A DNA stretch of 43,904 nt, taken from positions 1-43,904 of the forward strand of contig JAKSIC010000026.1 of NCBI GenBank assembly GCA_024399015.1, written 5' to 3'. This document shows, piece by piece, positions 18,599 to 43,605 of the stretch. How positions within the stretch are numbered: the stretch's first letter is position 1; every line of letters starts with the position of its first letter. The translations under genes were made by a program, and so were the position numbers. This DNA comes from Fibrobacter sp. Lineage in GTDB: Bacteria; Fibrobacterota; Fibrobacteria; Fibrobacterales; Fibrobacteraceae. The notes under the pieces were generated by a model that did no database searches, was not told the DNA's origin, and saw nothing but the letters and a program-made list of their open reading frames with translations.

Positions 18599-19387
18599 TT
18601 AGTAAAGTTTTGCTTCCCAGGTTATGGCGTAATCGTCGTTATCTTCGTCATCTAGGAACGTTTCCGTATCCTTGATGTATCCGATATCCTTTGCTGACAT
18701 GCATCGGCCAGAACTGACGATTTCGTCTTCTTCGTCATCGCCTGTCTGGCTGATAACGACGGGGCAAATCCTGATTTCGTCAATGCCGCGGACAACCGAA
18801 ATGGGGTCAAAGGAAGTCGTATCGCGCCATTTCTTTTCTTCAAGTTCTAGGGGTAGCACTCCCGTTGAAAGGGTGTTCGCCTTGACGCTGTCGCTGTACA
18901 GTTCAACCTTGAAACGAACCATCGGGTTGCTGGCCTTGTCTGACTTCTGCTTAAAGGACTTCAGCGTGATGCTGATGTTCTTGTTTTCCTGCAGGTAGTA
19001 GACTTCCACAACGGTATCCTTGGGGGTCACGTTGCTAGTATCTTGCGGCGTGACGTTGCCCGTAGTGTCCTTTGAACCATCGTTGTAGGTGTATTCGCCC
19101 TTGTCGTTGTAGTACGGATTGGAAATCTGCGGACAGTCGTAGGAACCGAATTTCTTGTAGAAATTGGAGCAGCGTTCCTTGCTGTAGGCTGCCAGGCAGT
19201 TATACAGATCTACGCGGCCCAAGTTGGCTTCCAAGGAATCCAGGAGACCTTTTTTAGGACCCTTGTGTTCGCTAAGAATTTCATTTTCGGCCTCGATAAC
19301 ACTTGTTTCGCTACAGGCGGAAAAAATAACGGCGGTAGATGCAATTGCAGATGCTACAAGAAGTTTTTTGATAAAATTAAATCTCAT
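18599..19387 (-). CDS. Lipoprotein of unknown function, 262 aa
   Basis: MRFNFIKKLLVASAIASTA then VIFSAC is a lipoprotein signal with lipidation at Cys25. The mature part has a cysteine-containing segment (YNCLAAYSKERCSNFYKKFG), a Thr/Asp-rich linker (KDTTGNVTPQDTSNVTPKDT) and a beta-rich C-terminus with RGIDEIRICPVVIS. No family was recognised. Start ATG 19387 follows AAGGAGGAATT. It begins 9 bp after the outer-membrane-like gene upstream, so the two form an operon and probably act together in the envelope. Confidence 0.75.
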   Translation of the reverse strand: MRFNFIKKLLVASAIASTAVIFSACSETSVIEAENEILSEHKGPKKGLLDSLEANLGRVDLYNCLAAYSKERCSNFYKKFGSYDCPQISNPYYNDKGEYTYNDGSKDTTGNVTPQDTSNVTPKDTVVEVYYLQENKNISITLKSFKQKSDKASNPMVRFKVELYSDSVKANTLSTGVLPLELEEKKWRDTTSFDPISVVRGIDEIRICPVVISQTGDDEEDEIVSSGRCMSAKDIGYIKDTETFLDDEDNDDYAITWEAKLY

Positions 19388-19396
19388 AATTCCTCC

Positions 19397-20812
19397 TTAC
19401 TTTAGACTCAAATCCACCATTACGCGCCATGAGGGCATGCCACCATGGTTAATGGCGTGGAATCTATGATTGTCTTTGGTGGAACCAGCAGCGAGGAGTA
19501 CCTGGTATTCGACAGAGATGTATTTGCAGTCGATGCCTGCGCCGGCCCAACTGCTGAACTCCCAGTCGTCTGCGTAGAAATTACCTTCAACAGTGTAGTT
19601 TTCGTAGGCCGGATAAAGTCCTTTACTTTCAAGAACGGCCAGGTCTTTCTTCAGTTCCTTGGACGGATGCTTTACGGTATATTCGCGAGTTGTATTGATC
19701 TGGTCGAAAATGGACTTTGTGATATCCCCTGCAAGGCTGAGGAAAATGAACGTTGTGTGGCCGGTGTGAGCTCCGAGTTTCAGTGTAAGAGGAGCGTCAA
19801 CGGCGATGTCATGATAGTCTACGGTAAGCTTGTTGTTGACGTCAAATTGGGTTTCCTTGTATGTGATTCCGTCCTTGATTTCGTCATTCTTTGTGAATCT
19901 TGCATAACGGTATATGGCGCCAAGGCGTCCCTGCAAGGCAAAGAAACTGGTAAAGTAGTATCGATAGAAAAGATATACGCCAAAGTTTCCGTCCCAGTCG
20001 CTGTTTTCTTCGAGATTGCCCAAACGCTTGTCCTTGGCTCTTCCTCCGATAAAGGAAAGACCGAAGTTGTAGGTGATCGAGGCGATGCTGTCTCTGATGG
20101 CGTTCTGGGTGCTGTCGTATTCGGCAACACTCTTTTTCTTGCGCATGGCCTTGAATCTATTGACGTAGCTTCTCTTGGGGGTGTCGACACTGTCTGCAGA
20201 ACTGGATGCAGATGTGTCTGCAACTGCTGCAGTGGTCGACTGTGTCGAGGTGCCTCTCAGGATAAATGTCTGCTGACCGGGCTTCGTGTTCAGTACCGCC
20301 GGATTAACTGTAGTTGCCTTGGCTGCCGGCTGTGCTGATGCTTGTGTTGCGGGCTGTGCAGCCGGTTGAGGGACGGGCTGTGCTGCGGGCTTGGCCTCAG
20401 GTTGCGGAGTCGGTTCTGCAACAGGTTGAAGTGCGGATTCTGCCGGGGGAGTGGGTGCTTGTTCCGGTGCGGCACTGGACTGCACTTCCTCAAATGCACT
20501 TTCAAGGTCAGACTGTTCTTCCTGCGGAACTTCGGCCTCGGCGGTCTGTTCTTCGGCGTTATCTTCAACGGCTTCTGTAGAAGATTCTGCTGCGGATTCT
20601 TCTTCAGCAGTCTCGACAACCTGTTCTGCCTGTTCTTTTTTCTTTTTCTTCTTCTTGGATTTCTTTGCCTTTTTGGCACTCTTTGAGGTCTTGGACTTTG
20701 CCTGTAGAACCTTCTGTGTCTTCTCCACAGATGTTGCCGGCATAGATGGCGCTGCCAAGACGACCGCAGCCATGAAGGCCAAGAATGTCAGTATTTTTCG
20801 AATTAAAGCCAT
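19397..20812 (-). CDS. Outer-membrane barrel-like protein with a long charged/Pro-Ala linker, 471 aa
   Basis: MALIRKILTFLAFMAAVVLA is a signal peptide. It is followed by a very basic stretch (KAKKSKKKKKKKEQ), an acidic Glu/Ala segment, and about 60 residues of Pro/Ala/Gln repeats (PQPEAKPAAQPVPQPAAQPA). The last 220 residues alternate aromatic and polar residues in amphipathic strands (FGVYLFYRYYFTSFFALQGR, AIYRYARF, WAGAGIDCKYISVEYQVLLA) and resemble a small outer-membrane beta-barrel. The linker could cross the periplasm or bind peptidoglycan (inference). The ATG at 20812 is preceded by GGGAG nine bases upstream. It is the first gene of a two-gene leftward operon with a lipoprotein. Confidence 0.75.
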   Translation of the reverse strand: MALIRKILTFLAFMAAVVLAAPSMPATSVEKTQKVLQAKSKTSKSAKKAKKSKKKKKKKEQAEQVVETAEEESAAESSTEAVEDNAEEQTAEAEVPQEEQSDLESAFEEVQSSAAPEQAPTPPAESALQPVAEPTPQPEAKPAAQPVPQPAAQPATQASAQPAAKATTVNPAVLNTKPGQQTFILRGTSTQSTTAAVADTSASSSADSVDTPKRSYVNRFKAMRKKKSVAEYDSTQNAIRDSIASITYNFGLSFIGGRAKDKRLGNLEENSDWDGNFGVYLFYRYYFTSFFALQGRLGAIYRYARFTKNDEIKDGITYKETQFDVNNKLTVDYHDIAVDAPLTLKLGAHTGHTTFIFLSLAGDITKSIFDQINTTREYTVKHPSKELKKDLAVLESKGLYPAYENYTVEGNFYADDWEFSSWAGAGIDCKYISVEYQVLLAAGSTKDNHRFHAINHGGMPSWRVMVDLSLK

Positions 20813-20985
20813 TTGAAAAAACTCCCGAGATAAGCAAAAACTACCACTAAACTTACGCAATGTTGGCTTGTCGTGCAAATGTTTTTTCGAGAAAAAGTCC
20901 TTTTTTCCGCATTTTATCCATTATTTTTGATGAATTTGACTCGTTTATTCCAAATTGGAGTGCTTCTTGGGTGTCATTGGTCACA

Positions 20986-21054: not shown

Positions 21055-24000
21055 ATGAAATCGCTTAATTGTGTTTTTTTGTCTGTTTTGTTTGTCCTGC
21101 TGTTGGTAGGTCAGTCTTTTGCTGCGCTTAAAGATACCACGGTCAGTAGTAAAACGTACAAGGTCATTGCAACGTGCGAAAACTTGGTGGAATTTTCCCG
21201 TTTGGTAAACACGGTTGTTTGCCCGTCTGGTTATGACTATGTGTATGGCGACAATAAATGCCAGAAAAAAGGCTCCCTTATAATAAAATCTGAGGCGTCC
21301 TTCCCCAATGCCGGGCTTAATGCGATTGTGACTGGTCCTATTGATATGACCTGTACCGAAAACTTTGAGCCGATGGGTTATGAAAATAGTGGTCGTCAGT
21401 ATGTTGGTAATTTTAATGGCCAGGGATATCCTATCCGTAATTTGAAAATCGATAGTGATGATCAGAATGTGGCCCTGTTCGGTGTGATAACGACAGAAGC
21501 TGTGATTGAAAATGTGGTTCTTGAAAATGTGGAAATTAAGGCTACGGGTATACAGGAAAGAGGAGGAAGCCGCCCCATTAGTGTGGGTACTATTGTCGCA
21601 TGGCAGGAAGATGGTACGGTCAGTGGATGTTATGCCTCCGGCTCTATTGTTACAGATGGTTTGGCTCAGAGTGTTGGTGGTATAACAGGCTATGCAACAG
21701 CTGGTACGATAAAGGATTGCTTGAGTTCTGTTGAAATTCATAACTTGAGTAACGCAAGCTTTGTGGGCGGTGTTGCAGGTACCCTTAGCAATGCAAAAAT
21801 TGAACGTTGCGTGTATGGGGGCAATGGCGTTTACAATGCTGGCGATGGTACGTTGGGCGGCCTTGTGGGGCAGAAAATCGTGAGTACAGGATCGATTGCG
21901 AACAGCTACTATGACAATAAGACTGTTGATAAACCTGTCGGAAACGAAAATAACGGTTCCGGTAGCGGTGTAGGTCTTCCTGATGTAAATACGTCAGAAA
22001 CCGTTGAAAATTTGAATGAAGGGTGTGGCGAAAAATGTATTTGGTCTAACGGATCGGACAATATCACCAATACCGGTATTTCCAACGATAATGTTGACAA
22101 TACTGTGTACACGATCTATTTCGCTGCCGGTACAGGTTGTGCATTCCCGTCAGGTGCCATTACTTCCAAGGCTTTGAGGTTTGATAGTCCGATTACATCT
22201 ACCGGTATTACGGAACCTGTTTGCGACGAGAAGAAGTTTCTCGGTTGGTCTTTGAATGCTTCTGCTACAAAACCGGATGAAAGTCTGGGCAAGGTGTCTG
22301 GCTCTAGCACGGTGTATGCCGTGTGGGAAGACTATGTAACCGTGACCTTCCATTCTAATGGTGGTAAGTTTGCTGGTGACAAGACTGAACTGGCTAAGAA
22401 AGTTGCCAAACAGTCTGTGATTGTCTCTTCTGATATTGAAATTCCCTCTAGAGCTCCTGAAGGCACCGGAGAAGATACGAAGTATTTCTCATTCAAGGGC
22501 TGGGCTTTGACAAGTGATGCTGTTGATGTTCAGAGCCTTGGTGCGGCTGAGGGTGATGTTAATGTTTATGCTGTTTGGGAAGAGACGAAGATAGTTTATT
22601 ACTCCGTCATCTATGATGTGAATGGACATGGTGAAACTCCGGCTATTGATCGTGTGAAGGAACATTCAACGGCTTTTAGACCCGAAGATCCAATTGCTGA
22701 TGGTTATAAGTTTGATGGTTGGTACACCTCTGCCGATGGCAAGGGCTTGCCTTATGATTTCGAAAAAACGGTTTTGAATGATTTGAAATTGTATGCAAAG
22801 TGGGTTCCCGTCAGCTACGCCATTCTTTATGAATTGGGTGAAAATGGCGTGAATAATATTGCTAATCCTGTGTCCTATACGATTGAATCTGCAAACATTA
22901 TTTTGCAGAATCCGTCCAGGGATGGTTATGATTTTATTGGCTGGTATGACAATGCTGACTTTAATGGCGAAGCCATTAAGACGATTCTTACCGGTTCCTT
23001 TGGTGATAAGAAATTCTATGCCAAGTGGAGTGTGAAATCCTACTACGTCTACTATGCCGAAGGTACTGATGGCGTCGGTGAAGTTCCTGCCGCACAATTG
23101 GTGAATCACGGGGATTCCGTTAAGTTGGCTGGAAAAGTCTTCACGAGAAATGTCTACAAATGTGATAAGGATGGTAAAAATTGCTCTGTACAAACGACAG
23201 TCAATCAAATTGGTTGGTCTCTTTCTGATGGTGGTAAAAAGTTCTATGATCTTGAAAGCTACTATAAGGGAAATGCATCTGTTACGTTGTATCCTGCCTG
23301 GGATGAAAGCGCTTTGACGTTGTATGCCGTTACTTTCAAGATTGTTGGCGCTGCGTCGACTGACGCTGCTGAATATCTGGAAGCTAGGTACCTAGATGTG
23401 TCTAGCGCTTCCGATGTGAATGTCAAGTATCCCGCAATGTTGATTCATGATGGATATGAAATTACTAAAGTGTCTTCCAGTGATGTGGCGTTAGATACGA
23501 AGACGACAAGTTTTGTGATGCCGAAGAAGAATGTTGTGGTGACAATTGATGTTGCTCCCAAGAAGTATAAATTGGCTTGGAATCTTGAAGGTGGCAGTGT
23601 TGCAACGGCAGGAACTGCAGCTGGTGAAGTTTCATATGGAACTTCCTTGAATGCTCCGGTTGTTGAAAAGGAACATTATACTTTCTCTGGTTGGAATCCG
23701 AGTGTCCCGGAAACGATGCCTGCAGAAAATGTTTCCTATACGGCTGTGTGGACCGAGAAAACGATTGATGTGACGGTTAATCTCGGAGGAAATAAGATTA
23801 CGGTCACTGTAAGTGAAGATGCTTCAAAGGATGAAATTGAAGAAAAGATTAACGAACTGCTCCGTGATCCGAATTCTGACTTGAAGGTTCCCGAAAAACC
23901 TTCCGATGATGATTTCGTTTATGAATTCAATGGTCATTGGAAGGAAGATGGTGGCGAATATGTTCCCGAATACGATGCCATTTCTCGTGAAGACCAGAAT

Positions 24001-26808
24001 ATTCATGTTGTAGTGGGTGGTTCTCAAGTTGATGTTACCGTCAGAAAGGATGATTCTAAGGAAACCGTTAATCAGAAAATTAACGATGCTGTGAAGGATG
24101 CCGGAATTGTAGTTCCCGCCAAGGATGGCGATGGTTATAAGTTCAATGGCGAATGGGAACAGGATAAGGACGGTAATTATGTTCCTGTTTATGATGTTGT
24201 AACAATCAAGGTGGTTGTTGCTGGTAAGGAAATCGATATTGATATCAAGAAGGGTGATAGCGCCGATGACATCAGCGATAAGATTAATGATGCTTTAGCT
24301 GAGGCCGCCAAGACTGATCCTGCCGTTGTTGTTCCTGCCAAGGATGAAGCTGGTCGTGATTTCAACGGCAAGTGGGAAGACGCCGATGGCGACGACAAGT
24401 ACACTCCGGTGTATGTTGTACCTGATGACAGCAAGGTCATTGAAGTTGTTGTTGGCAAGGATACCATTGAAGTTGTTGTTCCCAAGGATGCTTCTGACGA
24501 AGAAGTTGAACAGAAGATTAGCGAAGTCGTAACCAAGCCTGTCGTTGGCGACAAGGATGAAGATGGCTACCAGTTCAATGGCGAATGGGAACAGAATAAG
24601 GATGGCGCTTACGAACCCGTCTACGAAAAGACTGTCCAGGCTGAAGTTGCTGGCAAGGATATTCCTGTTGATATCAAGAAGGGCGATAGCGCCGATGACA
24701 TCAGCGATAAGATTAATGATGCTTTAGCTGAGGCTGCCAAGACTGATCCTGCCGTTGTTGTTCCTGCCAAGGATGAAGCTGGTCGTGATTTCAACGGCAA
24801 GTGGGAAGACGCCGATGGCGACGACAAGTACACTCCGGTGTATGTTGTACCTGATGACAGCAAGGTCATTGAAGTTGTTGTTGGCAAGGATACCATTGAA
24901 GTTGTTGTTCCCAAGGATGCTTCTGACGAAGAAGTTGAACAGAAGATTAACGAAGTCGTGACCAAGCCTGTCGTTGGCGACAAGGATGAAGACGGCTACC
25001 AGTTCAATGGCGAATGGGAACAGGACAAGGATGGCAATTACGAACCTGTCTACGAAAAGACTGTCCAGGCTGAAGTTGCAGGCAAGGACATCCCCGTTGA
25101 CATCAAGAAGGGTGATAGCGCCGATGACATCAGCGATAAGATTAATGACGCTGTAGCTGAGGTCGCCAAGACTGATCCTGCCGTTGTTGTTCCTGCCAAG
25201 GATGAAGCTGGTCGTGATTTCAACGGCAAGTGGGAAGACGCCGATGGCGACGACAAGTACACTCCGGTGTATGTTGTACCTGATGACAGCAAGGTCATTG
25301 AAGTTGTTGTTGGCAAGGATACCATTGAAGTTGTTGTTCCCAAGGATGCTTCTGACGAAGAAATTAAGCAGAAGATTAACGAAGTCGTGACCAAGCCTGT
25401 CGTTGGCGACAAGGATGAAGACGGCTACCAGTTCAATGGCGAATGGGAACAGGACAAGGATGGCAATTACGAACCTGTCTACGAAAAGACTGTCCAGGCT
25501 GAAGTTGCAGGCAAGGACATCCCCGTTGACATCAAGAAGGGTGATAGCGCCGATGACATCAGCGATAAGATTAATGACGCTGTAGCTGAGGCTGCCAAGA
25601 CTGATCCTGCCGTTGTTGTTCCTGCCAAGGATGAAGCTGGTCGTGATTTCAACGGCAAGTGGGAAGACGCCGATGGCGACGACAAGTACACTCCGGTGTA
25701 TGTTGTACCTGATGACAGCAAGGTCATTGAAGTTGTTGTTGGCAAGGATACCATTGAAGTTGTTGTTCCCAAGGATGCTTCTGACGAAGAAATTGAACAG
25801 AAGATTGAAGAAACCTTGAATAATCATGATCCCAAGATTGAAGTTCCTGAATCTGAAGATGGTTTCGAATTCAATGGCGAATGGAAGAAGGATGATGATG
25901 GCAATTATGTTCCTGTTTACGAAAAGGAGATTGTCGTAGTCATTGGAAACACTACTATCAGCGTTGTTATCGACAAGGATGATTCTGATGATGATGTCAA
26001 TCAGAAGATTAACGATGCTGTGGCCGAAATTTCCAAGAAGGATTCTAGCATTGTCGTTCCTGTCGTTGGCGACAAGGATTCTGTTGGTAATGAATTTGAT
26101 GGTAAGTGGGAAAAAGATGAATACGGCAATTATGTGCCTGTTTATTCAAAGGCATACAAGATTGTCTATGTGATGCCTTCAAATGCGGTTCTTTCCAGCG
26201 ACGTTTCAAAGTACGTTCTTGGTAAAGGTGTGCAGCTCCCGTCTGCTTCCATCAAGGATGATGAATCCTGGAAGTTTATGGGTTGGTATGAAACTGAGGA
26301 TTACGCTGGTCTCAGGGTAAAGTTTGTCGGTGCCGAAGCCAAGGGCCGAAAGACTTTCTATGCCCTGTTCCAGAAGACTGTCCATTATAAGGCTGGCGAT
26401 GTATCCGGAAAAATGGAAGTGGTGTTCAACTACGACGTAGAAAATTCGGATGAGGTCGTTCAGCGTGCCTTGATGGGTGTTGCTCCCGAAGGCTACACCA
26501 AGAAGGGTGTGGACTACGTCTTTGACAAGTGGGTTCTTTCTGACGGTGTGTATGTGGCCAAGTTTGTGGATGCTTCCACTGGCATGAAGAACATTGCTGT
26601 GGCACGTCACTTTGGTGTCTCTGTTTGCGGTCGCACTCTGAACATTGTTGGCGCTAAGCAGGGCGACAAGATGCTCGTTGTTGATATGAAGGGCAAGATT
26701 GTGGCCCAGGACAGAATCAGCGGTGTAAACCACATTGTTGAACTGACTTCCGCAGGGAACTATTTGGTTCGCGTCAATGGAGTTTCTACTCGTGTGATGG
26801 TGCGATAA
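21055..26808 (+). CDS. Giant secreted repeat protein (GLUG-like, InlB B-repeats, 11 acidic repeats, T9SS-like C-terminus), 1,917 aa
   Basis: MKSLNCVFLSVLFVLLLVGQ ending SFA is a signal peptide. Residues about 100-300 carry GLUG-like repeats (YVGNFNGQGYPIRNLKI, VGGITGYATAGTIKDC, LGGLVGQ). Residues about 345-900 contain Listeria-Bacteroides (InlB B) repeats ending in [YF]AxW after a GW motif, such as GYKFDGWYTSADG ... LKLYAKW. Residues about 903-1700 hold 11 acidic repeats of about 72 residues (pattern xIxVxVxKdxSxdeIxxKIN ... GYxFNGEWExDxDGNYxPVY), eight arranged as four near-identical 143-aa pairs. The last 60 residues (KMLVVDMKGKIVAQDRI ... AGNYLVRVNG) resemble a type IX secretion sorting domain. 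A surface or adhesive role is inferred. Confidence 0.88.
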   Translation: MKSLNCVFLSVLFVLLLVGQSFAALKDTTVSSKTYKVIATCENLVEFSRLVNTVVCPSGYDYVYGDNKCQKKGSLIIKSEASFPNAGLNAIVTGPIDMTCTENFEPMGYENSGRQYVGNFNGQGYPIRNLKIDSDDQNVALFGVITTEAVIENVVLENVEIKATGIQERGGSRPISVGTIVAWQEDGTVSGCYASGSIVTDGLAQSVGGITGYATAGTIKDCLSSVEIHNLSNASFVGGVAGTLSNAKIERCVYGGNGVYNAGDGTLGGLVGQKIVSTGSIANSYYDNKTVDKPVGNENNGSGSGVGLPDVNTSETVENLNEGCGEKCIWSNGSDNITNTGISNDNVDNTVYTIYFAAGTGCAFPSGAITSKALRFDSPITSTGITEPVCDEKKFLGWSLNASATKPDESLGKVSGSSTVYAVWEDYVTVTFHSNGGKFAGDKTELAKKVAKQSVIVSSDIEIPSRAPEGTGEDTKYFSFKGWALTSDAVDVQSLGAAEGDVNVYAVWEETKIVYYSVIYDVNGHGETPAIDRVKEHSTAFRPEDPIADGYKFDGWYTSADGKGLPYDFEKTVLNDLKLYAKWVPVSYAILYELGENGVNNIANPVSYTIESANIILQNPSRDGYDFIGWYDNADFNGEAIKTILTGSFGDKKFYAKWSVKSYYVYYAEGTDGVGEVPAAQLVNHGDSVKLAGKVFTRNVYKCDKDGKNCSVQTTVNQIGWSLSDGGKKFYDLESYYKGNASVTLYPAWDESALTLYAVTFKIVGAASTDAAEYLEARYLDVSSASDVNVKYPAMLIHDGYEITKVSSSDVALDTKTTSFVMPKKNVVVTIDVAPKKYKLAWNLEGGSVATAGTAAGEVSYGTSLNAPVVEKEHYTFSGWNPSVPETMPAENVSYTAVWTEKTIDVTVNLGGNKITVTVSEDASKDEIEEKINELLRDPNSDLKVPEKPSDDDFVYEFNGHWKEDGGEYVPEYDAISREDQNIHVVVGGSQVDVTVRKDDSKETVNQKINDAVKDAGIVVPAKDGDGYKFNGEWEQDKDGNYVPVYDVVTIKVVVAGKEIDIDIKKGDSADDISDKINDALAEAAKTDPAVVVPAKDEAGRDFNGKWEDADGDDKYTPVYVVPDDSKVIEVVVGKDTIEVVVPKDASDEEVEQKISEVVTKPVVGDKDEDGYQFNGEWEQNKDGAYEPVYEKTVQAEVAGKDIPVDIKKGDSADDISDKINDALAEAAKTDPAVVVPAKDEAGRDFNGKWEDADGDDKYTPVYVVPDDSKVIEVVVGKDTIEVVVPKDASDEEVEQKINEVVTKPVVGDKDEDGYQFNGEWEQDKDGNYEPVYEKTVQAEVAGKDIPVDIKKGDSADDISDKINDAVAEVAKTDPAVVVPAKDEAGRDFNGKWEDADGDDKYTPVYVVPDDSKVIEVVVGKDTIEVVVPKDASDEEIKQKINEVVTKPVVGDKDEDGYQFNGEWEQDKDGNYEPVYEKTVQAEVAGKDIPVDIKKGDSADDISDKINDAVAEAAKTDPAVVVPAKDEAGRDFNGKWEDADGDDKYTPVYVVPDDSKVIEVVVGKDTIEVVVPKDASDEEIEQKIEETLNNHDPKIEVPESEDGFEFNGEWKKDDDGNYVPVYEKEIVVVIGNTTISVVIDKDDSDDDVNQKINDAVAEISKKDSSIVVPVVGDKDSVGNEFDGKWEKDEYGNYVPVYSKAYKIVYVMPSNAVLSSDVSKYVLGKGVQLPSASIKDDESWKFMGWYETEDYAGLRVKFVGAEAKGRKTFYALFQKTVHYKAGDVSGKMEVVFNYDVENSDEVVQRALMGVAPEGYTKKGVDYVFDKWVLSDGVYVAKFVDASTGMKNIAVARHFGVSVCGRTLNIVGAKQGDKMLVVDMKGKIVAQDRISGVNHIVELTSAGNYLVRVNGVSTRVMVR
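24220..25935 (+). repeat. Four tandem 429-bp repeats inside the giant surface gene
   Basis: The period is exactly 429 bp (143 codons), with the same phase point (the Ala codon of AGK[ED]I) at 24220, 24649, 25078 and 25507. Copies are nearly identical over long stretches; the second half of the fourth copy diverges. Each unit is itself two related halves. Such repeats favour copy-number change by recombination or slippage. Confidence 0.9.
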
Positions 26809-28616: not shown

Positions 28617-28661
28617 GTGCTGAACCGCGCGGCGCTATGTCCGCGCAATCCCAATCAGCGA

Positions 28662-29199
28662 TTAAGCCTTCTTATAATCAGCGATCTGTTCTGCAGTCAG
28701 GTTCATGATGAAGTTGGAGTGCTTCATCACTTCTGCTTCAGCAAGGTTCAGGTAAACCTTGGCGCTCTTGCCGAACAGTTCTGCGTTTGCAGAAGCGTCG
28801 CGGATGAGGAGCTGAGCCATGACGCAGTTACCGGCCATTTCGTACAGGCGGCGGCTGCAGAGGTCCAGGAACTCGTTGTTTTCAGCGGCCTTGACGTAGT
28901 CGATGGCTGCCTTGAACTTGTCGTCCATAGCCTTTGCGCGGGCCTTGAGGCTTTCGAATTCCGGTGCAACAGCGGCTGCTTCCAGTTCGTCGAGCATGGA
29001 AGTGTAGGTGCCGGTGGTGATGTGCGGAAGGGCGGCAACAACCTGGAGCTGGGTAGTACCTTCGTAGATGGAGGTAATACGAGCGTCGCGGTAGAGGCGC
29101 TGGCAAGCGTATTCCAGCATGTAGCCGGAACCGCCGTGAACCTGGATGCTGTCGTAGCTGTTGATGTTGGAGTATTCGGCATTCATGCCCTTGGTGAGC
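28662..29199 (-). pseudogene. 3'-terminal relic of an acyl-CoA dehydrogenase gene, copy A
   Basis: The protein reads [20 protein letters not shown] then [20 protein letters not shown] and [14 protein letters not shown], the classic C-terminal acyl-CoA dehydrogenase motif (QVxGGxGY ... RDARIxxIYEGTxxIQ), followed by a C-terminal extension ending [11 protein letters not shown]. All of the FAD-binding N-terminal and middle domains (about 350-400 residues) are missing. An in-frame ATG at 29258 inside the GC-rich element could give a 198-aa fusion, but it has no domain sense. It is shorter at its 5' end than copies B and C and nearly identical to them where they overlap. It is judged a non-functional duplicated fragment. 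Confidence 0.85.
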
Positions 29200-29208
29200 T
29201 TATGATGG

Positions 29209-29354
29209 TGGGGGAGGTTTCCCCCTCGCTGCAGCCCCGGCCCCGCCCTTACAATCATTCCCTACGGGAATAAAGTTCCGAAACCCACCCGGCCGGGTCT
29301 TCCGCTACCCCCTCTGCGGAGCTCAGTCGCCGCCCCGCAATGCCCTGCTTGTCC
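29209..29354. repeat. GC-rich hairpin-rich 'G-element', copy A
   Basis: About 145 bp shared with copies at 36524 and 43190. Successive inverted repeats are GGGGGA/TCCCCC, ATTCCC/GGGAAT, ACCCGGCCGGGT and GCGGAGC/GCCCCGC (one mismatch here). It abuts the dehydrogenase relic on the left. Similarity ends on the right after CCCTGCTTGTCC. No protein or known RNA family was recognised. Confidence 0.7.
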
Positions 29355-32432: not shown

Positions 32433-34052
32433 ATGTTTGTAAAACGACTATTGGTGTCATTACTCTTTTGGGGTGTTACTTGTTCAATTGCAGGAACTCT
32501 TGTTGATAATCGCGATGGTAGGAAGTATAAAACCATTAAAATCGGAGAATACACGTGGATGGCAGAAAATCTTAAGTACAAGGCATCTCCATCCTACTGT
32601 TTTGGCGGTAAGGAAAGTAATTGCCAAAAGTTTGGTCGAATGTATCCGTGGCATACCGCAATGAAACTACCTGCAAAAAAAGCATATGATGACGAAAATG
32701 TTAATGATTATGTAAAGCGAATGCATCAGGGGATTTGCCCAAGTGGATGGCATGTTCCCACAGTTGCTGAATTTGATTCCCTTAGCGAATTTGCCTATAA
32801 TGAAGGCGAACGTTTTGAAACTTCTAAAATGTTCGGATTGAAATATGGCGGTCAATTGATGATTCTTGGTGCCGAATATTATAGGGGGTATGTAGAGGAT
32901 GACCCAACAGCGGCGGCGCGTTTTTTTAAAACAGGAAAAAGAGGAGAGTTCCCTCTAAGGTATCTATATAAGGATTTTAAACATATTGAGACGTTCTCTA
33001 CCACAGAGGCTGAGGATGCCTCTGTAGTGTATTATTCTGCATATAGAGATCGGTATAATTTTGAAATAGGTCCGGTTCGTGTGTATCGAGGAGCCTCTGC
33101 AAATTATTTGCGCTGCGTGAAAAATTATAATGTTGATGAAAATGGTAACATGGTGCAAAACTGTGAGAAGGGATTTTTCTATCAGGATGGAGAATGTCGT
33201 AAGCCTTATGATTGTGATGAATTTGAATATGCTGTAGATAAGTGGACTTGTGCAGAACTTCCTGAAAATGCAAAGAAGAACAAGGGTGTGGGTTTTACTT
33301 GTAAAAAGGGATTTGACAAAGTAAAACTTTACGAAGATTATGATTGCATAAAACCCTATGACTGTGGTGAAGATGAGTTTTATGTCAGTAAATATGAATG
33401 TCAGGGGCTTCCCAAAAATGCTCGTCGAAAGAAGAATAAGAAGATCGGATTTGAATGCGATGATGGCTTTGACAAAGTCGAGATTAACGAAATCCCGTAT
33501 TGCAGAAAGCCATATATTTGTGAAGATGCAGAATACTCTGTAGCACAATATGAATGTGCATCCTTGCCGAAAAATGCTCATCGACTTGACTCTATTGGAT
33601 ATGCATGTGATGACGGTTTTGATAATGTACAAATCGGAAATTTTAGATATTGCAGGAAACCTTATGACTGCAGTGAAAAAGAGTATTCAGTAAATCAATA
33701 TGAGTGTGCGAATTTGCCTGCAAATTCTCACAAAAATGAATCGCAGGGATTTGACTGTGATGAGGGGTATTATAAGAAAAATCAAAAAGAATGTGAAAAC
33801 TTGCCAGCGAATGCCCATAAAAATAATTTGCAGGGATTTGACTGTGAGGAAGGCTTTTATAAGAAGAATGGAAGTGAATGTATAATATTCCCGATGAATG
33901 CTCACGCAATTGGCTCTAATGAATTTGAATGCGATGAAGAATTTTTTAAGAAAGAAATTGGCGGAGAGGTTATTTGTCTGGAAGAAGGTTATGAGTGTGA
34001 ATATGTGGGAGATGAGTGGGAGTGTACGCTGTCGCCGAGTTATGTAAAGTGA
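32433..34052 (+). CDS. Secreted FISUMP protein with cysteine-rich C-terminal repeats, 539 aa
   Basis: ATG 32433 follows AAAGGGTG; a GTG at 32424 is less likely. MFVKRLLVSLLFWGVTCSIA is a signal peptide. The FISUMP domain covers about residues 20-230 (YKTIKIGEYTWMAENLKYKA, FGRMYPWHTAM, CPSGWHVPTVAEF, YLRCVKN). The C-terminal 300 residues are a run of seven to eight repeats with paired cysteines. The longer type is CRKPYDCxExEYxVxxYECAxLPxNA ... GFxCDDGFDKV. Near the end they shrink to about 24 residues (CENLPANAHKNNLQGFDCEE). These resemble disulfide-rich EGF/knottin-like modules, but no named family was recognised. AT-rich like its neighbours. An adhesin role is inferred. Confidence 0.82.
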   Translation: MFVKRLLVSLLFWGVTCSIAGTLVDNRDGRKYKTIKIGEYTWMAENLKYKASPSYCFGGKESNCQKFGRMYPWHTAMKLPAKKAYDDENVNDYVKRMHQGICPSGWHVPTVAEFDSLSEFAYNEGERFETSKMFGLKYGGQLMILGAEYYRGYVEDDPTAAARFFKTGKRGEFPLRYLYKDFKHIETFSTTEAEDASVVYYSAYRDRYNFEIGPVRVYRGASANYLRCVKNYNVDENGNMVQNCEKGFFYQDGECRKPYDCDEFEYAVDKWTCAELPENAKKNKGVGFTCKKGFDKVKLYEDYDCIKPYDCGEDEFYVSKYECQGLPKNARRKKNKKIGFECDDGFDKVEINEIPYCRKPYICEDAEYSVAQYECASLPKNAHRLDSIGYACDDGFDNVQIGNFRYCRKPYDCSEKEYSVNQYECANLPANSHKNESQGFDCDEGYYKKNQKECENLPANAHKNNLQGFDCEEGFYKKNGSECIIFPMNAHAIGSNEFECDEEFFKKEIGGEVICLEEGYECEYVGDEWECTLSPSYVK

Positions 34053-35677: not shown

Positions 35678-35704
35678 GAGATCCCCGCCTTCGCGGGGAT
35701 GACT
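35678..35704. repeat. REP-like hairpin, module B
   Basis: ATCCCCGC-CTTC-GCGGGGAT is an 8-bp stem followed by GAC. It takes the place of the longer GGATCCTTC...GGATGAC repeat in modules A and C. Confidence 0.55.
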
Positions 35705-35715
35705 CCTAGACGTGA

Positions 35716-36512
35716 TTATGCCTTCTTATAATCAGCGATCTGATCTGCAGTCAGGTTCATGATGAAGTTGGAGTGCTTCATCACTTCTGCTTCGGCGAGG
35801 TTCAGGTAAACCTTGGCGCTCTTGCCGAACAGTTCTGCGTTTGCAGAAGCGTCGCGGATGAGGAGCTGAGCCATGACGCAGTTACCGGCCATTTCGTACA
35901 GGCGGCGGCTGCAGAGGTCCAGGAACTCGTTGTTTTCAGCGGCCTTGACGTAGTCGATGGCTGCCTTGAACTTGTCGTCCATAGCCTTTGCGCGGGCCTT
36001 GAGGCTTTCGAATTCCGGTGCAACAGCGGCTGCTTCCAGTTCGTCGAGCATGGAAGTGTAGGTGCCGGTGGTGATGTGCGGAAGGGCGGCAACAACCTGG
36101 AGCTGGGTAGTACCTTCGTAGATGGAGGTAATACGAGCGTCGCGGTAGAGGCGCTGGCAAGCGTATTCCAGCATGTAGCCGGAACCGCCGTGAACCTGGA
36201 TGCTGTCGTAGCTGTTGATGTTGGAGTATTCGGCGTTCATGCCCTTGGTGAGCGGAGTGCCGGCAGATGCCAACTTGTTGTACAGCTTCAGTTCAGCCTT
36301 TTCTTCGTCAGTGAGCTTGCGGGTGCGTTCGATATCTTCAAGGGACTTGTAGATGTCAACGTAGCGAGCTGTCTGGTAAAGGAGGGCGCGACCTGCGTCA
36401 ACGCGAGCCTTCATGTTGGAAAGCATTTCGTAGACGCCGGGGACCTATAAAATCCGAACTTGCGACGGCCGCAGAGTTCTGCCTTAGCGTTCTTGTAAAC
36501 CAGTTCGCAGGT
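35716..36512 (-). pseudogene. 3'-terminal relic of an acyl-CoA dehydrogenase gene, copy B
   Basis: The intact reading frame (236 aa from ATG 36426) runs EMLSNMKARVDAGRALLYQT ... [20 protein letters not shown] ... [11 protein letters not shown]. Upstream in another frame is TCELVYKNAKAELCG-RRKFGF, recognisable as the middle of the same enzyme family (usually followed by the MALMNGARLGIA region). The roughly 100 residues that should lie between are missing. The junction (around 36439-36442, a run of four G) shifts the frame. So this is a 5'-truncated, internally deleted, frameshifted pseudogene. It shares the same deletion with copy C, so both descend from one damaged copy. Confidence 0.85.
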
Positions 36513-36523
36513 GGTGGGTGTGT

Positions 36524-36669
36524 GGGGGGAGGTTTCCCCCTCGCTGCAGCCCCGGCCCCGCCCTTATAATCATTCCCTTCTGGAATAAAGTTTCGAAACC
36601 CACCCGACCGGGTCTTCCGCTACCCCCTCTGCGGGGCTCAGTCGCCGCCCCGCAACGCCCTGCTTGTCC
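36524..36669. repeat. G-element, copy B
   Basis: Shares GGGGGAGGTTTCCCCC and the following hairpins with copies A and C. Here the second hairpin is ATTCC-CTTCT-GGAAT, the third is ACCCGACCGGGT, and the last is a perfect GCGGGGC/GCCCCGC. Similarity to copy A ends after CCCTGCTTGTCC. The next 130 bp to the RNA element hold nothing recognisable. Confidence 0.7.
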
Positions 36670-37124: not shown

Positions 37125-40115
37125 ATGGCTTGGAAAAAGAATGCGAAAATGAAGCGTGTCGTAACGAACTTGCTGAAAGTAGGTACCGTCATTTTGAGTG
37201 CTGCGACTTTGTTCGCTTGCGGTGATGATTCTGGCAACTCGTCAAAGGCGGATAATGAGGATAATGGTCGCGAAGTGGCTACTCTTGTTGAAATGGGGCG
37301 TTGTACTAGCGAGCGCGAAGGCGATACCGTTTATGTAGCCGAAAAACTGACAGACTACCTTTGCAGAAACGGTTCCTGGATCGACCTCTCCGAATCGGAT
37401 GATTCTGATGACAATCCGAGATCCAGTAGTTCCGCAGTTCCCGGTTCCTCAAGTGTCATTCCGGGTGAAAGCGAAAAATCTAGCAGTTCATTCAACAAGG
37501 ACAAATATACAGACGAAAATCTTGTGGTCAAGAAACGTTCCATCCTGGGTGTGGCTCAGAAGGGCCCCTTCAAGTTTGGCTCTCCGGTTTATCTGAGGGA
37601 ACTTTCCGAAGAAACTCTGGACCCGACTGGAATGGTTTACGAAGACGAAATCAGCAGTAACAAGGGCGACTTCGTTATTCCCAATGTGAACTTGATTTCT
37701 CCCTATGCCGGCGTGGAAGTTCGTGGCCAGTACAGGAATGAGGTCACTGGCGAATACTCCAAGGATTCCATCAGTTTGTTCGTTCTCACCGATTTGAAAA
37801 CGGATTCTCGCACCAAGGTGAATATAAACCTGTTGACTCACCTGGAATACAAGCGCGCTATGTATCTGGTCCGTAAGGGTTATAGTGTTTATGCCGCAAA
37901 GAAACAGGCTGATCAGGAAATCATGACCGCCTTTGAAGTGCCCACCACAGTCAAGTATAGCGAAGATCTAAGTGTATTTGAGGATAGTGAAGATGATAAT
38001 GTAGATTATGCTAATGCAAGCCTCATGATGTTGAACTTGCTGTTTTTGGGCAATCGTTCCGATACGGAAATCAAAATTGCCATAGATCGTTTTGTTGCGG
38101 ATATTGAAAAGGACGGTTCCTGGGAAGATGATTCTACCAAGGCCGTGATGGCTGACTTTGCTACCGAAATTGATGGCGATGAAATCCGCGCCAATGTGAA
38201 GTCCTGGAATATTCTGGATGTTCCGAGGTTTGAGGCGCAAGTGGAAATGTTCTGGAACAATGTGTACGGTCTGGGCGGCTGCACCAGTGTCCGCTCCGGA
38301 GTCATCGCTCAGAACAAAAATAAGCACAGCAAGAATGTCAATAGCTATTACCTCTGCAAATCTTCAAGTTGGAAAAAGATTACGAATCTGGAGGCCGATA
38401 CTTACGGCTGGGACGCAGGCGAAACCGGTGAAGTCAAGAAGGGTGCCTATACGGATGCCAAGTATGTGTATCGTGGCGGAGCCTGGACCGAGGTAAATCC
38501 CGTCGAGGATGCCTTGGGCTCCTGCACGGCATCAAAATCTGGAACCGTGGACAAGACGGGCAATGTATATTACATCTGCAAATCTAACATTTGGGAAAAA
38601 GCAACGACTATAGAGTATGACACCTATGGCTGGTCTGCTGGAGCTGTCGGCGAGGTGAAGAAGGGCGATGTTTCAGATGCTTTGTATGTATACCGTGACG
38701 GAGCCTGGACCGAGGCCGATGCTGTTGAAAGTGCGCTGGGTTCCTGCACGGCAAGTGATGTTAAGACAATTAAAAATAACCAAGGCACCTATTATGTATG
38801 TGAAGATACCCAGTGGAAAATCCTGACCACTTTGGAAGCTGATACCTACGGTTGGACCGCTGGAACTGTCGGCGAAGTTAAGAAAGGTAACGTTACTGAC
38901 GCCAAGTATGTATACAGGAACGGCAAGTGGAATGCTGCTAGTACCGTAGAAAGTACTTTAGGATCTTGTACTGCAAGTAATGCCAAGACAATTGTAAATG
39001 AGCAGGGCTCCTATTATGTATGTGAAAGCACCCAATGGAAAATCCTGACCACCTTGGAGGCGGATACTTACGGCTGGTCATCGGGAACTACCGGCGAAGT
39101 TAAGAAAGGTAACGTTACTGACGCCAAGTATGTATACAGGAACAGCAAGTGGAATGCCGCTAGCACCGTAGAAAGTACTTTAGGATCTTGTACAACGAAG
39201 AATGCTGGAACTGTATCGGAAACAGGAAATGTCTATTATATCTGTAAGTCTAGCTCTTGGACAAGGGCTACCGCATTGGAATACGATACCTATGGTTCCA
39301 CTTGCTCTAAGGATGGATCAATTGTTAGCGGGGCTGTAAATGCCAATAACAAGTATGTCTGTGATGACGGTTCCTTTAGAACGGCAACGGCTACTGAAAT
39401 TAACCTGGAATTAGGTTGTACAAGTTATACGCAAGGAAAAATAATTACAACACTATCTAACGCATCTGTAGAAGAACGATGGGTATGTTTGGATAGATGG
39501 AAATACCAACGATTTGTTTATATGAAGGATTCTCGAGATAATAAAACTTATAGAACAGTGACCATTGGGGATCAAACCTGGATGGCCGAGAACTTGAACT
39601 ATGATTATAACGAGGGAACTGCCAAAAGTTATTGCTACCTCAATAAAGCGGACTCTTGTGCCAAGTATGGCCGTCTGTATACTTGGGCTGCGGCAATGGA
39701 TTCGGCGGCGGTATTCTCTACTGCAGGAAAAGGATGTGGCTTTGGTAAAGCTTGTAGTGTTAGTGGGACTGTTCGCGGCGTATGTCCTGAGGGCTGGCAC
39801 TTACCAAGTCGAGCTGAATTTAATACTCTAATGAATTCGGTTGGCGGTTCCGGAGTTGCAGCAACTAAATTGAAATCAACTGATGGCTGGAGAAATGGGA
39901 ATGGAACAGACGATTACGGTTTCTCTGCGCTCCCTGCTGGCTACTACTACAGTGGCGGCTTCAGCAGTGTTGGCTCCTACGCTGCCTTCTGGAGTGCTAC
40001 TGATGACGATAGCAGTAACGCCAACAACTGTTACTTGAATGCGAGCCGTGCGGACCTCTACTACAACTACAAGGTCTACGGGTTCGGTATTCGTTGCCTC
40101 CAGGACCAGAATTGA
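37125..40115 (+). CDS. FISUMP lipoprotein with 74-aa tandem repeats, 996 aa
   Basis: ATG 37125 lies five bases after GGAGG; ATG 37113 overlaps that site. The signal ends in LSAATLFAC, so it is a lipoprotein. A Ser/Asp-rich linker (SSSSAVPGSSS) follows. Next comes a domain seen in other Bacteroidota-type lipoproteins (LGVAQKGPFKFGSPVYLREL ... VNINLLTHLEYKRAMYLVRK ... ADQEIMTAFEV). Residues about 385-720 are tandem 74-aa repeats (LGSCTAS ... YYVCESTQWK ... TYGWxAGTVGEVKKGNVTDA). Residues about 800-996 are a FISUMP domain (YRTVTIGDQTWMAENLNYDY, YGRLYTWAAAMDSA, CPEGWHLPSRAEF, FGIRCLQD). The last 50 codons are unusually rich in TAC, AAC and other NNC codons, like a diversity-generating retroelement target. 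A surface role is inferred. Confidence 0.87.
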   Translation: MAWKKNAKMKRVVTNLLKVGTVILSAATLFACGDDSGNSSKADNEDNGREVATLVEMGRCTSEREGDTVYVAEKLTDYLCRNGSWIDLSESDDSDDNPRSSSSAVPGSSSVIPGESEKSSSSFNKDKYTDENLVVKKRSILGVAQKGPFKFGSPVYLRELSEETLDPTGMVYEDEISSNKGDFVIPNVNLISPYAGVEVRGQYRNEVTGEYSKDSISLFVLTDLKTDSRTKVNINLLTHLEYKRAMYLVRKGYSVYAAKKQADQEIMTAFEVPTTVKYSEDLSVFEDSEDDNVDYANASLMMLNLLFLGNRSDTEIKIAIDRFVADIEKDGSWEDDSTKAVMADFATEIDGDEIRANVKSWNILDVPRFEAQVEMFWNNVYGLGGCTSVRSGVIAQNKNKHSKNVNSYYLCKSSSWKKITNLEADTYGWDAGETGEVKKGAYTDAKYVYRGGAWTEVNPVEDALGSCTASKSGTVDKTGNVYYICKSNIWEKATTIEYDTYGWSAGAVGEVKKGDVSDALYVYRDGAWTEADAVESALGSCTASDVKTIKNNQGTYYVCEDTQWKILTTLEADTYGWTAGTVGEVKKGNVTDAKYVYRNGKWNAASTVESTLGSCTASNAKTIVNEQGSYYVCESTQWKILTTLEADTYGWSSGTTGEVKKGNVTDAKYVYRNSKWNAASTVESTLGSCTTKNAGTVSETGNVYYICKSSSWTRATALEYDTYGSTCSKDGSIVSGAVNANNKYVCDDGSFRTATATEINLELGCTSYTQGKIITTLSNASVEERWVCLDRWKYQRFVYMKDSRDNKTYRTVTIGDQTWMAENLNYDYNEGTAKSYCYLNKADSCAKYGRLYTWAAAMDSAAVFSTAGKGCGFGKACSVSGTVRGVCPEGWHLPSRAEFNTLMNSVGGSGVAATKLKSTDGWRNGNGTDDYGFSALPAGYYYSGGFSSVGSYAAFWSATDDDSSNANNCYLNASRADLYYNYKVYGFGIRCLQDQN
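38276..39290 (+). repeat. Tandem 222-bp (74-codon) repeats in the FISUMP lipoprotein gene
   Basis: The phase point GG[CT]GA[AG]GT of the GEVKKG motif occurs at 38427, 38649, 38871 and 39093, exactly 222 bp apart. The copies at 38871 and 39093 are the most alike. A partial, more divergent copy flanks each end. Confidence 0.88.
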
Positions 40116-42341: not shown

Positions 42342-42384
42342 GGATCCTTCATTTCGTCGCTTTCGCGACTTCATTCAGGATGAC
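42342..42384. repeat. REP-like palindrome, module C
   Basis: The same GGATCCTTC...TCAGGATGAC element as in module A, including the inner GTCGCTTTCGCGAC. Confidence 0.7.
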
Positions 42385-42393
42385 ATCTAGCGA

Positions 42394-43189
42394 TTAAGCC
42401 TGCTTGTAATCAGCGATCTGATCTGCAGTCAGGTTCATGATGAAGTTGGAGTGCTTCATCACTTCTGCTTCGGCGAGGTTCAGGTAAACCTTGGCGCTCT
42501 TGCCGAACAGTTCTGCGTTTGCAGAAGCGTCGCGGATGAGGAGCTGAGCCATGACGCAGTTACCGGCCATTTCGTACAGGCGGCGGCTGCAGAGGTCCAG
42601 GAACTCGTTGTTTTCAGCGGCCTTGACGTAGTCGATGGCTGCCTTGAACTTGTCGTCCATAGCCTTTGCGCGGGCCTTGAGGCTTTCGAATTCCGGTGCA
42701 ACAGCGGCTGCTTCCAGTTCGTCGAGCATGGAAGTGTAGGTGCCGGTGGTGATGTGCGGAAGGGCGGCAACAACCTGGAGCTGGGTAGTACCTTCGTAGA
42801 TGGAGGTAATACGAGCGTCGCGGTAGAGGCGCTGGCAAGCGTATTCCAGCATGTAGCCGGAACCGCCGTGAACCTGGATGCTGTCGTAGCTGTTGATGTT
42901 GGAGTATTCGGCATTCATGCCCTTGGTGAGCGGAGTGCCGGCAGATGCCAACTTGTTGTACAGCTTCAGTTCAGCCTTTTCTTCGTCAGTAAGCTTGCGG
43001 GTGCGTTCGATATCTTCAAGAGACTTGTAGATGTCCACGTAGCGAGCTGTCTGGTAAAGGAGGGCGCGACCAGCGTCAACGCGAGCCTTCATGTTGGAAA
43101 GCATTTCGTAGACGCCGGGACCTATAAAATCCGAACTTGCGACGGCCGCAGAGTTCTGCCTTGGCGTTCTTGTAAACCAGTTCGCAGGT
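42394..43189 (-). pseudogene. 3'-terminal relic of an acyl-CoA dehydrogenase gene, copy C
   Basis: Almost identical to copy B. The intact frame is 236 aa from ATG 43104, ending TADQIADYKQA, and TCELVYKNAKAELCG again lies upstream in a different frame. At the deletion junction (43117-43119) copy C has three G where copy B has four, so the two copies are shifted into different frames. Neither can restore an enzyme, because the FAD-binding N-terminus and the middle helical domain are missing. Confidence 0.85.
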
Positions 43190-43328
43190 GGGGGGGAGGT
43201 TTCCCCCTCGCTGCAGCCCCGGCCCCGCCCTTACAATCATTCCCTTCGGGAATAAAGTTCCGAAACCCACTCGGCCGGGTCTTCCGCTACCCCCTCTGCG
43301 GGGCTCAAACGCCGCCCCGCAACGCCCG
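43190..43328. repeat. G-element, copy C
   Basis: Starts at the G-run before GAGGTTTCCCCC. It has ATTCCC-TTC-GGGAAT, ACTCGGCCGGGT and GCGGGGC/GCCCCGC. Similarity to the other copies ends about ten bases earlier than between A and B (after AACGCCC), where the coding stump of an HNH gene begins. Confidence 0.7.
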
Positions 43329-43605
43329 GCTCATCAAGGACGACGACGTGACCAACAAGAAGGTAATTTATCCGTACCTGTTGACGCATGACGAACGCAA
43401 CCTTTCCATTCGTGCGTTTACGGATAACCAAAAGATAAAGGCCTACGAGCGACAACAAGGAGCTTGTCCGATTTGCAGACAACATTTTGAACTGTCGCAA
43501 ATGGAAGCTGACCATATAACGCCCTGGTGCGAAGGCGACCCGGCAATCGATACAAACTGTCAATTGCTGTGCAGGGATTGCAACAGAAGAAAAAGTGACA
43601 AGTAG
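43329..43605 (+). pseudogene. C-terminal stump of an HNH endonuclease (GmrSD/DUF262-like)
   Basis: The frame from about 43329 reads RLIKDDDVTNKKVIYPYLLT, then LSIRAFTDNQKIKAYERQQG, then CPICRQHF, MEADHITPWCEG, NCQLLCRDCNRRKS and a stop codon. This is a complete HNH module: zinc cysteines CPIC and CRDC, catalytic ADHI, and the N of NCQ. It is of the kind found at the end of DUF262/GmrSD-type restriction proteins, which cut modified phage DNA. The several hundred residues that should precede it are absent; the frame runs into the G-element instead. No start codon or ribosome-binding site is evident. Truncated, probably inactive. Confidence 0.8.

Follow-up and report, generated by a model that had tools for sequence, protein, structure and literature searches.

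Here we describe a giant surface protein gene of Fibrobacter sp., a member of a genus of plant-fibre degraders of the herbivore gut, whose product carries an acidic array of tandem repeats. The gene lies in a stretch of 43,904 nucleotides (contig JAKSIC010000026.1 of assembly GCA_024399015.1; hereafter the window), which is one contig of a 3.34-Mb genome. We consider it likely that the array forms a stalk resembling those of the Periscope Proteins, exported by type IX secretion and built from repeats of a beta-grasp family that seems to be undescribed and that occurs mostly in Fibrobacter. From its N terminus, the protein comprises a probable signal peptide, a GLUG module, several Flg_new (InlB-type) domains and 11 repeats, followed by a Flg_new-like stretch with F-M-G-W (assigned by eye), a diverged 12th repeat and a tail resembling a type IX sorting domain (Table 1). 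Other Pfam rows for the whole protein, including Lipase_GDSL_2 and MDMPI_N, were below their cut-offs and were regarded as chance; an open reading frame (ORF) of 367 amino acids (aa) on the minus strand (24724-25827) was regarded as a shadow of the repeats.

Composition of the repeat array

An iterated profile detected 11 domains at aa 904-1699, each with E <= 6.6e-15. Of 12 matches to F[ND]G-(x)-W, the pattern of the repeat core, the one at aa 553 falls in an InlB-type domain and the other 11 lie at aa 958-1681. The array is acidic, with 26.1% Asp and Glu, a net charge of -14.3 per 100 residues (-114 over 796 aa) and an isoelectric point (pI) of 4.14; the pI was 4.53 and 4.82 for the two parts of the protein preceding the array and 9.20 for the part following it. 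No cysteine is present between aa 711 and 1857. These results bear out the 11 acidic, cysteine-free repeats described in an earlier reading of the window made from the letters alone (the sequence-only reading), which had overlooked the diverged 12th copy at aa 1775-1839. When the 12th copy was included in the profile it scored E 2.2e-14, a value that arises by construction because the profile contained it.

Tandem Repeats Finder reported a period of 429 base pairs (bp), with 3.7 copies and 97% matches, and 8 of the 11 repeats sit in this array. Each 429-bp unit consists of two unlike copies, type A and type B. Four near-identical units had been proposed; this description holds for the array except in the fourth unit, which is near-identical in its first ~330 bases only, its second half (r10) having diverged. 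Within these 330 bases, the units of the window differ from one another by 8-27 bases. The acidic motifs were rarer than had been claimed: DKDEDGY is found in r4, r6 and r8 and DKDGNY in r2, r6 and r8, so that 4 of the 11 repeats, rather than most, carry either one, and DKDGNY is located after FNGEWE, not ahead of it.

Predicted fold of the repeat

To r2, AlphaFold2 (22-row alignment) assigned a predicted local distance difference test score (pLDDT) of 88.2 and a predicted template modelling score (pTM) of 0.70, with strands at residues 2-9, 12-19, 51-58 and 63-69 and a helix at residues 24-38. The pair r8 and r9 was modelled with a pLDDT of 90.1 and a pTM of 0.77; in this model, a single unbroken strand (residues 62-74) closes r8 and opens r9. 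The beta-beta-alpha-beta-beta order of the beta-grasp is present in both models.

Neither model had a Foldseek match at E <= 0.001. For one repeat, the top rows consisted largely of ubiquitin-like domains and of protein G B1; for two repeats, the talin head ranked best (the F0-F1 double ubiquitin-like domain; E 9.0e-3, probability 0.99). With VIA-align, the best match of one repeat was to residues 19-109 of 7b9s chain 5 (Z 5.9, root-mean-square deviation (rmsd) 2.6, 67 residues aligned), the range that the EccD5 ubiquitin-like domain occupies in 7b7j, and that of two repeats was to the talin head 3ivf (Z 6.6, rmsd 6.0, 117 aligned). Most VIA-align rows were ubiquitin-like, with Z scores of 4.7-6.6. 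A wider sequence profile showed weak likeness to ubiquitin (E 0.058) and to plexin RBD (E 0.11). Most structural rows belong to one fold class and the sequence profile leans weakly toward ubiquitin and plexin RBD; we read the repeat as a tandem beta-grasp (ubiquitin-like) domain, whose secondary structure is predicted with high model confidence.

Several observations weigh against this assignment. All structural Z scores were below 8, a level that for small domains possibly reflects just a common arrangement. Rows that are not ubiquitin-like also appeared, namely leucyl-tRNA synthetase domains in VIA-align with both models, and TSST-1 and AvrB in Foldseek with the two-repeat model (E 0.5 and worse). 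In addition, the rows counted as ubiquitin-like include plexin RBD, the PI3K adaptor-binding domain, talin F0/F1 and a toluene monooxygenase subunit, all of which we take to be of this kind.

The likeness stops short of the ubiquitin family proper. A narrower profile searched against the PDB gave ubiquitin an E of 1e-7, but nine copies at 4.7-4.8 bits each add up to this low value, and we dropped it as a claim of homology; the wider profile gave the best E stated above. The ubiquitin family of Pfam reached a best E of 0.085-0.11 (12.7 bits vs 25.4 where given), which places the repeats outside the modifier family. No C-terminal Gly-Gly was found, and the repeats finish in Y-x-P-x-Y plus a linker. 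Flagellin_IN (PF07196) matched the whole protein with 25.4 bits (cut-off 22.7) and was set aside as a partial likeness confined to positions 2-35 of 55; one type A repeat scanned singly scored 22.3 bits, under the cut-off.

Alternatively, the repeats might be diverged InlB B-repeats (Flg_new), of the same family as the domains preceding the array, and not a separate beta-grasp family. We regard this as possible but rather doubtful. Flg_new-like domains adjoin the repeats in the window and, by eye, in the relative L056, and many relatives have Y-x-F-x-G-W at the place of FNGEW. The InlB B-repeat itself has reportedly been described as a beta-grasp (by Ebbes et al. in 2011). Profile-profile comparison of all copies with Flg_new gave a probability of 47.6 (score 22.4, 16 columns), and trimmed core copies gave 71.2 (score 24.9, 25 columns), compared with 13.5 or lower in 100 column shuffles, and 71.8 once a cut copy of L052 was counted with the core; PF09479 also matched 2 of the 28 members of a wider set (best E 0.0047). 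However, the probability was 3.6 in a global profile alignment and 8.5 for the terminal copies, and an iterated Flg_new profile found 140 copies in these proteins, none of which overlapped any repeat by >20 residues. The first half of the repeat (G-x-x-I-x-V... S-x-x-x-I-x-x-K-I) resembles ubiquitin, not InlB, and five window repeats scanned singly gave no PF09479 match at E <= 10 and stayed under its gathering score. InlB was not among the 50 best rows listed in each of the four structural searches, which proves nothing on kinship. We keep to a beta-grasp family of its own, with a remote kinship to InlB B-repeats as a possibility.

Calcium and the stiffness of the array

The sequence-only reading had further proposed that calcium stiffens the stalk. 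DxDxDG is present in 3 of the 11 window repeats (3 of 12 copies), namely r4, r6 and r8. Three or more occurrences were obtained in 1 of 2000 composition shuffles (mean 0.23); the three count as one event because they are duplicates of one.

That the acidic loops take up calcium and thereby make the array rigid, in the manner of RTX adhesins and cadherins, seems quite improbable to us. In r4, r6 and r8, DKDEDGYQFNGE supplies D, D, D, G and E at EF-loop positions 1, 3, 5, 6 and 12, and elsewhere DxDxDG in a helix-loop-strand setting binds calcium, according to passages of PMC3123361; in RTX adhesins, calcium in the linkers is reported to have a stiffening effect (PMC7493085). Against this, the motif is missing from 8 of the 11 window repeats, all three carriers have a non-acidic residue at position 9, and the I, L or V typical of loop position 8 in EF loops is replaced by Q (same passages of PMC3123361). 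The acidic residue at position 12 (E53 of the r8 and r9 model) lies in the middle of the third strand, b3 (residues 49-56). In the models, the two acidic loops are at opposite ends of b3, with DKDGN forming the b3-b4 turn, and the domains and the B-to-A joint were modelled at high confidence without metal. At the place of the acidic loop, relatives often read D-S-T-Y or similar, and they do not keep DKDEDG where the window has it. On counts, conservation and position, we reject calcium loops as a trait shared across the array, and calcium is probably not the source of its stiffness. A local candidate site in r4, r6 and r8 alone is conceivable, because the helix-loop-strand DxDxDG is a known calcium context in the excerpts of PMC3123361.

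Among the copies of relatives, DxDxDG was found in 7 of 103, in another loop than in the window, and a DxDxDGxx[DE]-type loop in the b1-b2 hairpin in 8 of 103 (L040, L046 and L047, from genomes G031 and G041). One of 28 members scanned matched FG-GAP, an integrin-type family, at E 0.006. Because of this hairpin loop and the FG-GAP match, calcium may serve some relatives at a site different from the acidic loops of the window; with regard to stiffening by calcium, these findings lend some support, but the motif is in a different loop and in two genomes only. Examples of the hairpin loop are found at aa 1106-1183, 1805-1881 and 2110-2194 of the L040 protein.

The repeat family in relatives

A profile of the 11 repeats matched in 13 of 100 genomes (its own included), all of the same genus. 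With a wider profile, 23 genomes matched out of the 167 searched in the phylum, and the same genus accounts for 21 of these (again including its own); outside the genus, two other genera each had one partial match (E 3.9e-4 and 8.2e-4). In proteins from 17 stretches drawn from the genomes of the first search, the iterated profile found 115 copies, of which 12 belong to the window and 103 to relatives; they are spread over 19 proteins, that of the window included. Each protein has 2 to 15 copies, the terminal one included, some of the 19 being cut by contig or stretch ends. Many relatives read Y-x-F-x-G-W ... Y-x-P-x-F, compared with Y-x-F-N-G-E-W ... Y-x-P-V-Y in the window. The diverged copy near the C terminus, before the tail, recurs in many relatives; a profile of 13 terminal copies matched the core repeats with a profile-profile probability of 96, a 26-residue cut core copy (L052) being counted with the core and one other short copy being left out. 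A pattern scan of contigs returned 457 matches, none of which was confirmed, and a second scan led to three loci.

None of the five window repeats scanned singly reached a Pfam gathering score, in agreement with the sequence-only reading, which did not recognise the repeat as a named domain, and no published account of it was found in the one open-access library searched. The family is apparently undescribed and found mainly in Fibrobacter.

Two or more cysteines were seen in 13 of the 115 copies, in the repeats of L042-L046, where in several copies they flank the b3-b4 turn and possibly form a cross-strand disulfide. At L043 (G009 contig 5), repeats of the family lie in an open frame of 6399 aa. 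L047 (G031 contig 136) has two tandem giant genes with repeats; their frames measure 2358 and 1361 aa, and the second is truncated where the contig stops.

Number of 429-bp units

The orthologue in genome G139 (L067) is a 1642-aa frame that encodes seven repeats and, in addition, the terminal copy. Its DNA is 98.8% identical to the window over 8153 bp and 97.6% over 4536 bp, which cover the flanks and the rest of the gene. The two 429-bp units of G139 correspond to units 1 and 4 of the window (6 and 4 differences in 429 bp), and the window has two additional units in the middle, four versus two, in draft assemblies. In G005, a gene with two repeats plus the terminal copy lies near a homologue of the same DEAD-box gene, with the cassette on the opposite side.

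It is possible, though on balance unlikely, that the two-unit difference between the window and G139 is an assembly artefact. The units are alike enough for short reads to collapse, and the retention of exactly the first and last unit in G139, the pattern that such a collapse would also leave, speaks against a genuine difference in length. On the other side stand the 8-27 base differences among the window units and the range of copy numbers in other relatives. The stalk of varying length suggested in the sequence-only reading has support: predicted folded tandem domains lie between the N-terminal module and the type IX-like tail, and the orthologue in the draft assemblies has half the number of units.

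Export, anchoring and a proposed mechanism

The window genome has SprA (1098.5 bits), a gene of the type IX translocon, and 44 sorting-tail matches, 33 of them above the cut-off. Type IX secretion in Fibrobacter has been published, as passages of PMC6851124 describe. The tail of the giant protein itself is 0.9 bit short of the TIGR04183 cut-off (22.1 vs 23 bits), is not in the list of 44 and scores 14.1-15.6 bits against PF18962 (cut-off 27). The tails of four relatives scored 24.0, 28.6, 25.3 and 18.8 bits with TIGR04183, three of them above the cut-off.

We propose that the giant protein would be exported by the Sec pathway and then by type IX secretion and would be anchored by its C terminus, with the array holding the N-terminal GLUG/InlB-type module away from the cell. 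As modelled, the strand shared across the B-to-A joint (EPVYEKTVQ) would make this joint stiff without metal, and the A-to-B joint may be stiffened by a short proline linker (VVPDDSK). Like charge along the array may add to its extension; calcium would not be required for stiffness of the array as a whole. Recombination between the near-identical 429-bp units would shift the length by two domains per step.

A different role can be imagined, in which the repeats do more than act as a spacer and are themselves the binding surface, for example a multivalent one that recognises mucin, a cation or a polymer from plants. Although the array is much more acidic than the rest of the protein, and although passages of PMC4047093 present other beta-grasp surface domains as resembling immunoglobulin- or mucus-binding ones, the charged loops differ between relatives and the position near the anchored end suits a spacer, and we consider a binding role improbable.

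The spacer reading can be extended to a more general proposal, which we find plausible but put forward tentatively: an undescribed extracellular ubiquitin-fold family, mainly of Fibrobacter, may form 'polyubiquitin-like' rods with strand-continuous joints, exported and anchored through type IX secretion and tuned in length by recombination of 429-bp units, which would make the protein a Periscope Protein among type IX cargo, and some relatives may have gained true DxDxDGxxD calcium loops in the first hairpin.

Neighbouring genes and other features of the contig

Two divergent genes lie next to the giant gene, one for a possible outer-membrane barrel and one for a possible lipoprotein; the latter matched no Pfam family at E <= 1. 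A barrel homologue adjoins the giant gene at 15 of the 24 loci compared (L037-L041, L044, L048-L050, L054-L056 and L067-L069), which represent 13 distinct places, two of them covered by two loci each. It is divergent and upstream in 12 of these places and downstream on the same strand in one. In the nine loci without it, the 5' end of the giant gene is missing or has <1.4 kb upstream, except at L047, whose second giant gene stands in tandem behind another with no barrel gene between. A lipoprotein homologue was present in 11 of 24 loci. The pair is a possible secretion or anchoring partner of the giant protein.

Table 1. Features of the giant surface protein gene and its divergent neighbours (window coordinates)
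Feature	Position	Strand	Basis
Giant surface protein gene, 1917 aa	21055..26808	+	ORF; Flg_new 114.5 bits and Glug 22.4 bits, both above Pfam cut-off
Probable signal peptide, aa 1-24, hydrophobic, ending SFAA	21055..21126	+	By eye from sequence
Top GLUG-motif match, aa 205-222, N-terminal module	21667..21720	+	PF07581 above cut-off for whole protein
Top Flg_new / InlB B-repeat domain, aa 516-582, precedes array	22600..22800	+	PF09479 58.2 bits; phmmer to 2y5p E 1.8e-4
Repeat r1, aa 904-975	23764..23979	+	Iterated profile
Repeat r2, aa 983-1048	24001..24198	+	Iterated profile; single-domain model pLDDT 88.2
Repeat r3, type A, unit 1	24205..24417	+	Profile, unit alignment
429-bp tandem array, 3.7 copies, 97% matches	24239..25806	+	Tandem Repeats Finder
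Repeat r4, type B, DKDEDG, unit 1	24439..24630	+	Profile, motif, unit alignment
Repeat r5, type A, unit 2	24634..24846	+	Profile, unit alignment
Repeat r6, type B, DKDEDG, unit 2	24868..25059	+	Profile, motif, unit alignment
Repeat r7, type A, unit 3	25063..25275	+	Profile, unit alignment
Repeat r8, type B, DKDEDG, unit 3	25297..25488	+	Profile, motif; first domain of two-repeat model
Repeat r9, type A, unit 4	25492..25704	+	Profile; second domain of two-repeat model
Repeat r10, type B, second half diverged, ESEDG, unit 4	25726..25926	+	Profile, unit alignment
Repeat r11, aa 1626-1699	25930..26151	+	Iterated profile
12th, diverged copy, aa 1775-1839	26377..26571	+	E 3.3e-4 in iterated profile; similar copy near C terminus of relatives
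C-terminal stretch resembling type IX sorting domain (type A)	26650..26805	+	TIGR04183 22.1 bits, cut-off 23
Divergent neighbour, possible outer-membrane barrel	19397..20878	-	OMP_b-brl_2 E 0.0039, below cut-off; kept beside giant gene in many relatives
Divergent neighbour, possible lipoprotein	18599..19387	-	Lipobox-like start by eye; often kept with barrel gene

Elsewhere on the contig, what resembles the 3' part of an acyl-CoA dehydrogenase gene (labelled from its translation) is present in three copies, at 28654-29354, 35697-36669 and 42378-43331. Their aligned pieces are 94-99% identical, with one short piece at 91%, and different genes lie between them; contig 1 of this genome has five further copies inside a span of 26 kb. 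These fragments resemble a serially duplicated gene end with cargo between the copies. The third adjoins an ORF at 42451-43605 with a C terminus that we take to be HNH-endonuclease-like. Two more tandem repeats, with periods of 222 and 87 bp, are located in neighbouring ORFs at 38751-39193 and 33692-33901, respectively.

Comparison with known systems

Periscope Proteins are described in passages of PMC9704523 and PMC8201768 as a class with near-identical tandem domains, rod shape and variation in domain number, and beta-grasp folds are listed there among the stalks. Like SasG, Rib and Sgo_0707/SHIRT as portrayed in those passages, the giant protein has near-identical tandem folded domains (period 429 bp, 97%) and a unit number that appears to vary between close relatives (four versus two in two draft genomes), together with short or proline-bearing linkers in a surface protein with a putative terminal anchor; a rod shape would fit the shared strand of the two-repeat model. 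By contrast, the host here is Gram-negative, the tail is type IX-like instead of belonging to a sortase or autotransporter system, the unit consists of two unlike copies (A and B), and the domain family is another one.

With ubiquitin-like domains, including the tandem talin F0-F1, the repeat shares the beta-beta-alpha-beta-beta order and the top structural rows, as well as local sequence likeness in the first hairpin and helix. It differs from them in its FNG-x-W and Y-x-P-V-Y second half and in the lack of a C-terminal Gly-Gly; it is no modifier and would be extracellular. The InlB B-repeat, or Listeria-Bacteroides repeat (PF09479, TIGR02543), is found in the same protein and shares the F-x-G-W motif and a weak profile likeness, whereas the repeats have a helix and an acidic first half and gave no PF09479 match among the five scanned. 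The flagellin hook IN motif (PF07196) is similar to the hairpin and helix of type A repeats, over only part of its length. In SraP of S. aureus, a beta-grasp module likewise lies within a rod-like stem, but this module is single-copy and calcium is bound by the cadherin-like modules, not by the beta-grasp, according to passages of PMC4047093.

Giant surface proteins of Fibrobacter thus carry a repeat that matched no Pfam or NCBIfam model in the scans made, and its likely source of stiffness shifts from calcium to strand-linked domains. Our findings suggest that the tuning of stalk length, known from Gram-positives and autotransporters, may exist in type IX cargo as well. The fold and the principle are already known; within the libraries and literature searched, the domain family and its type IX setting look new.

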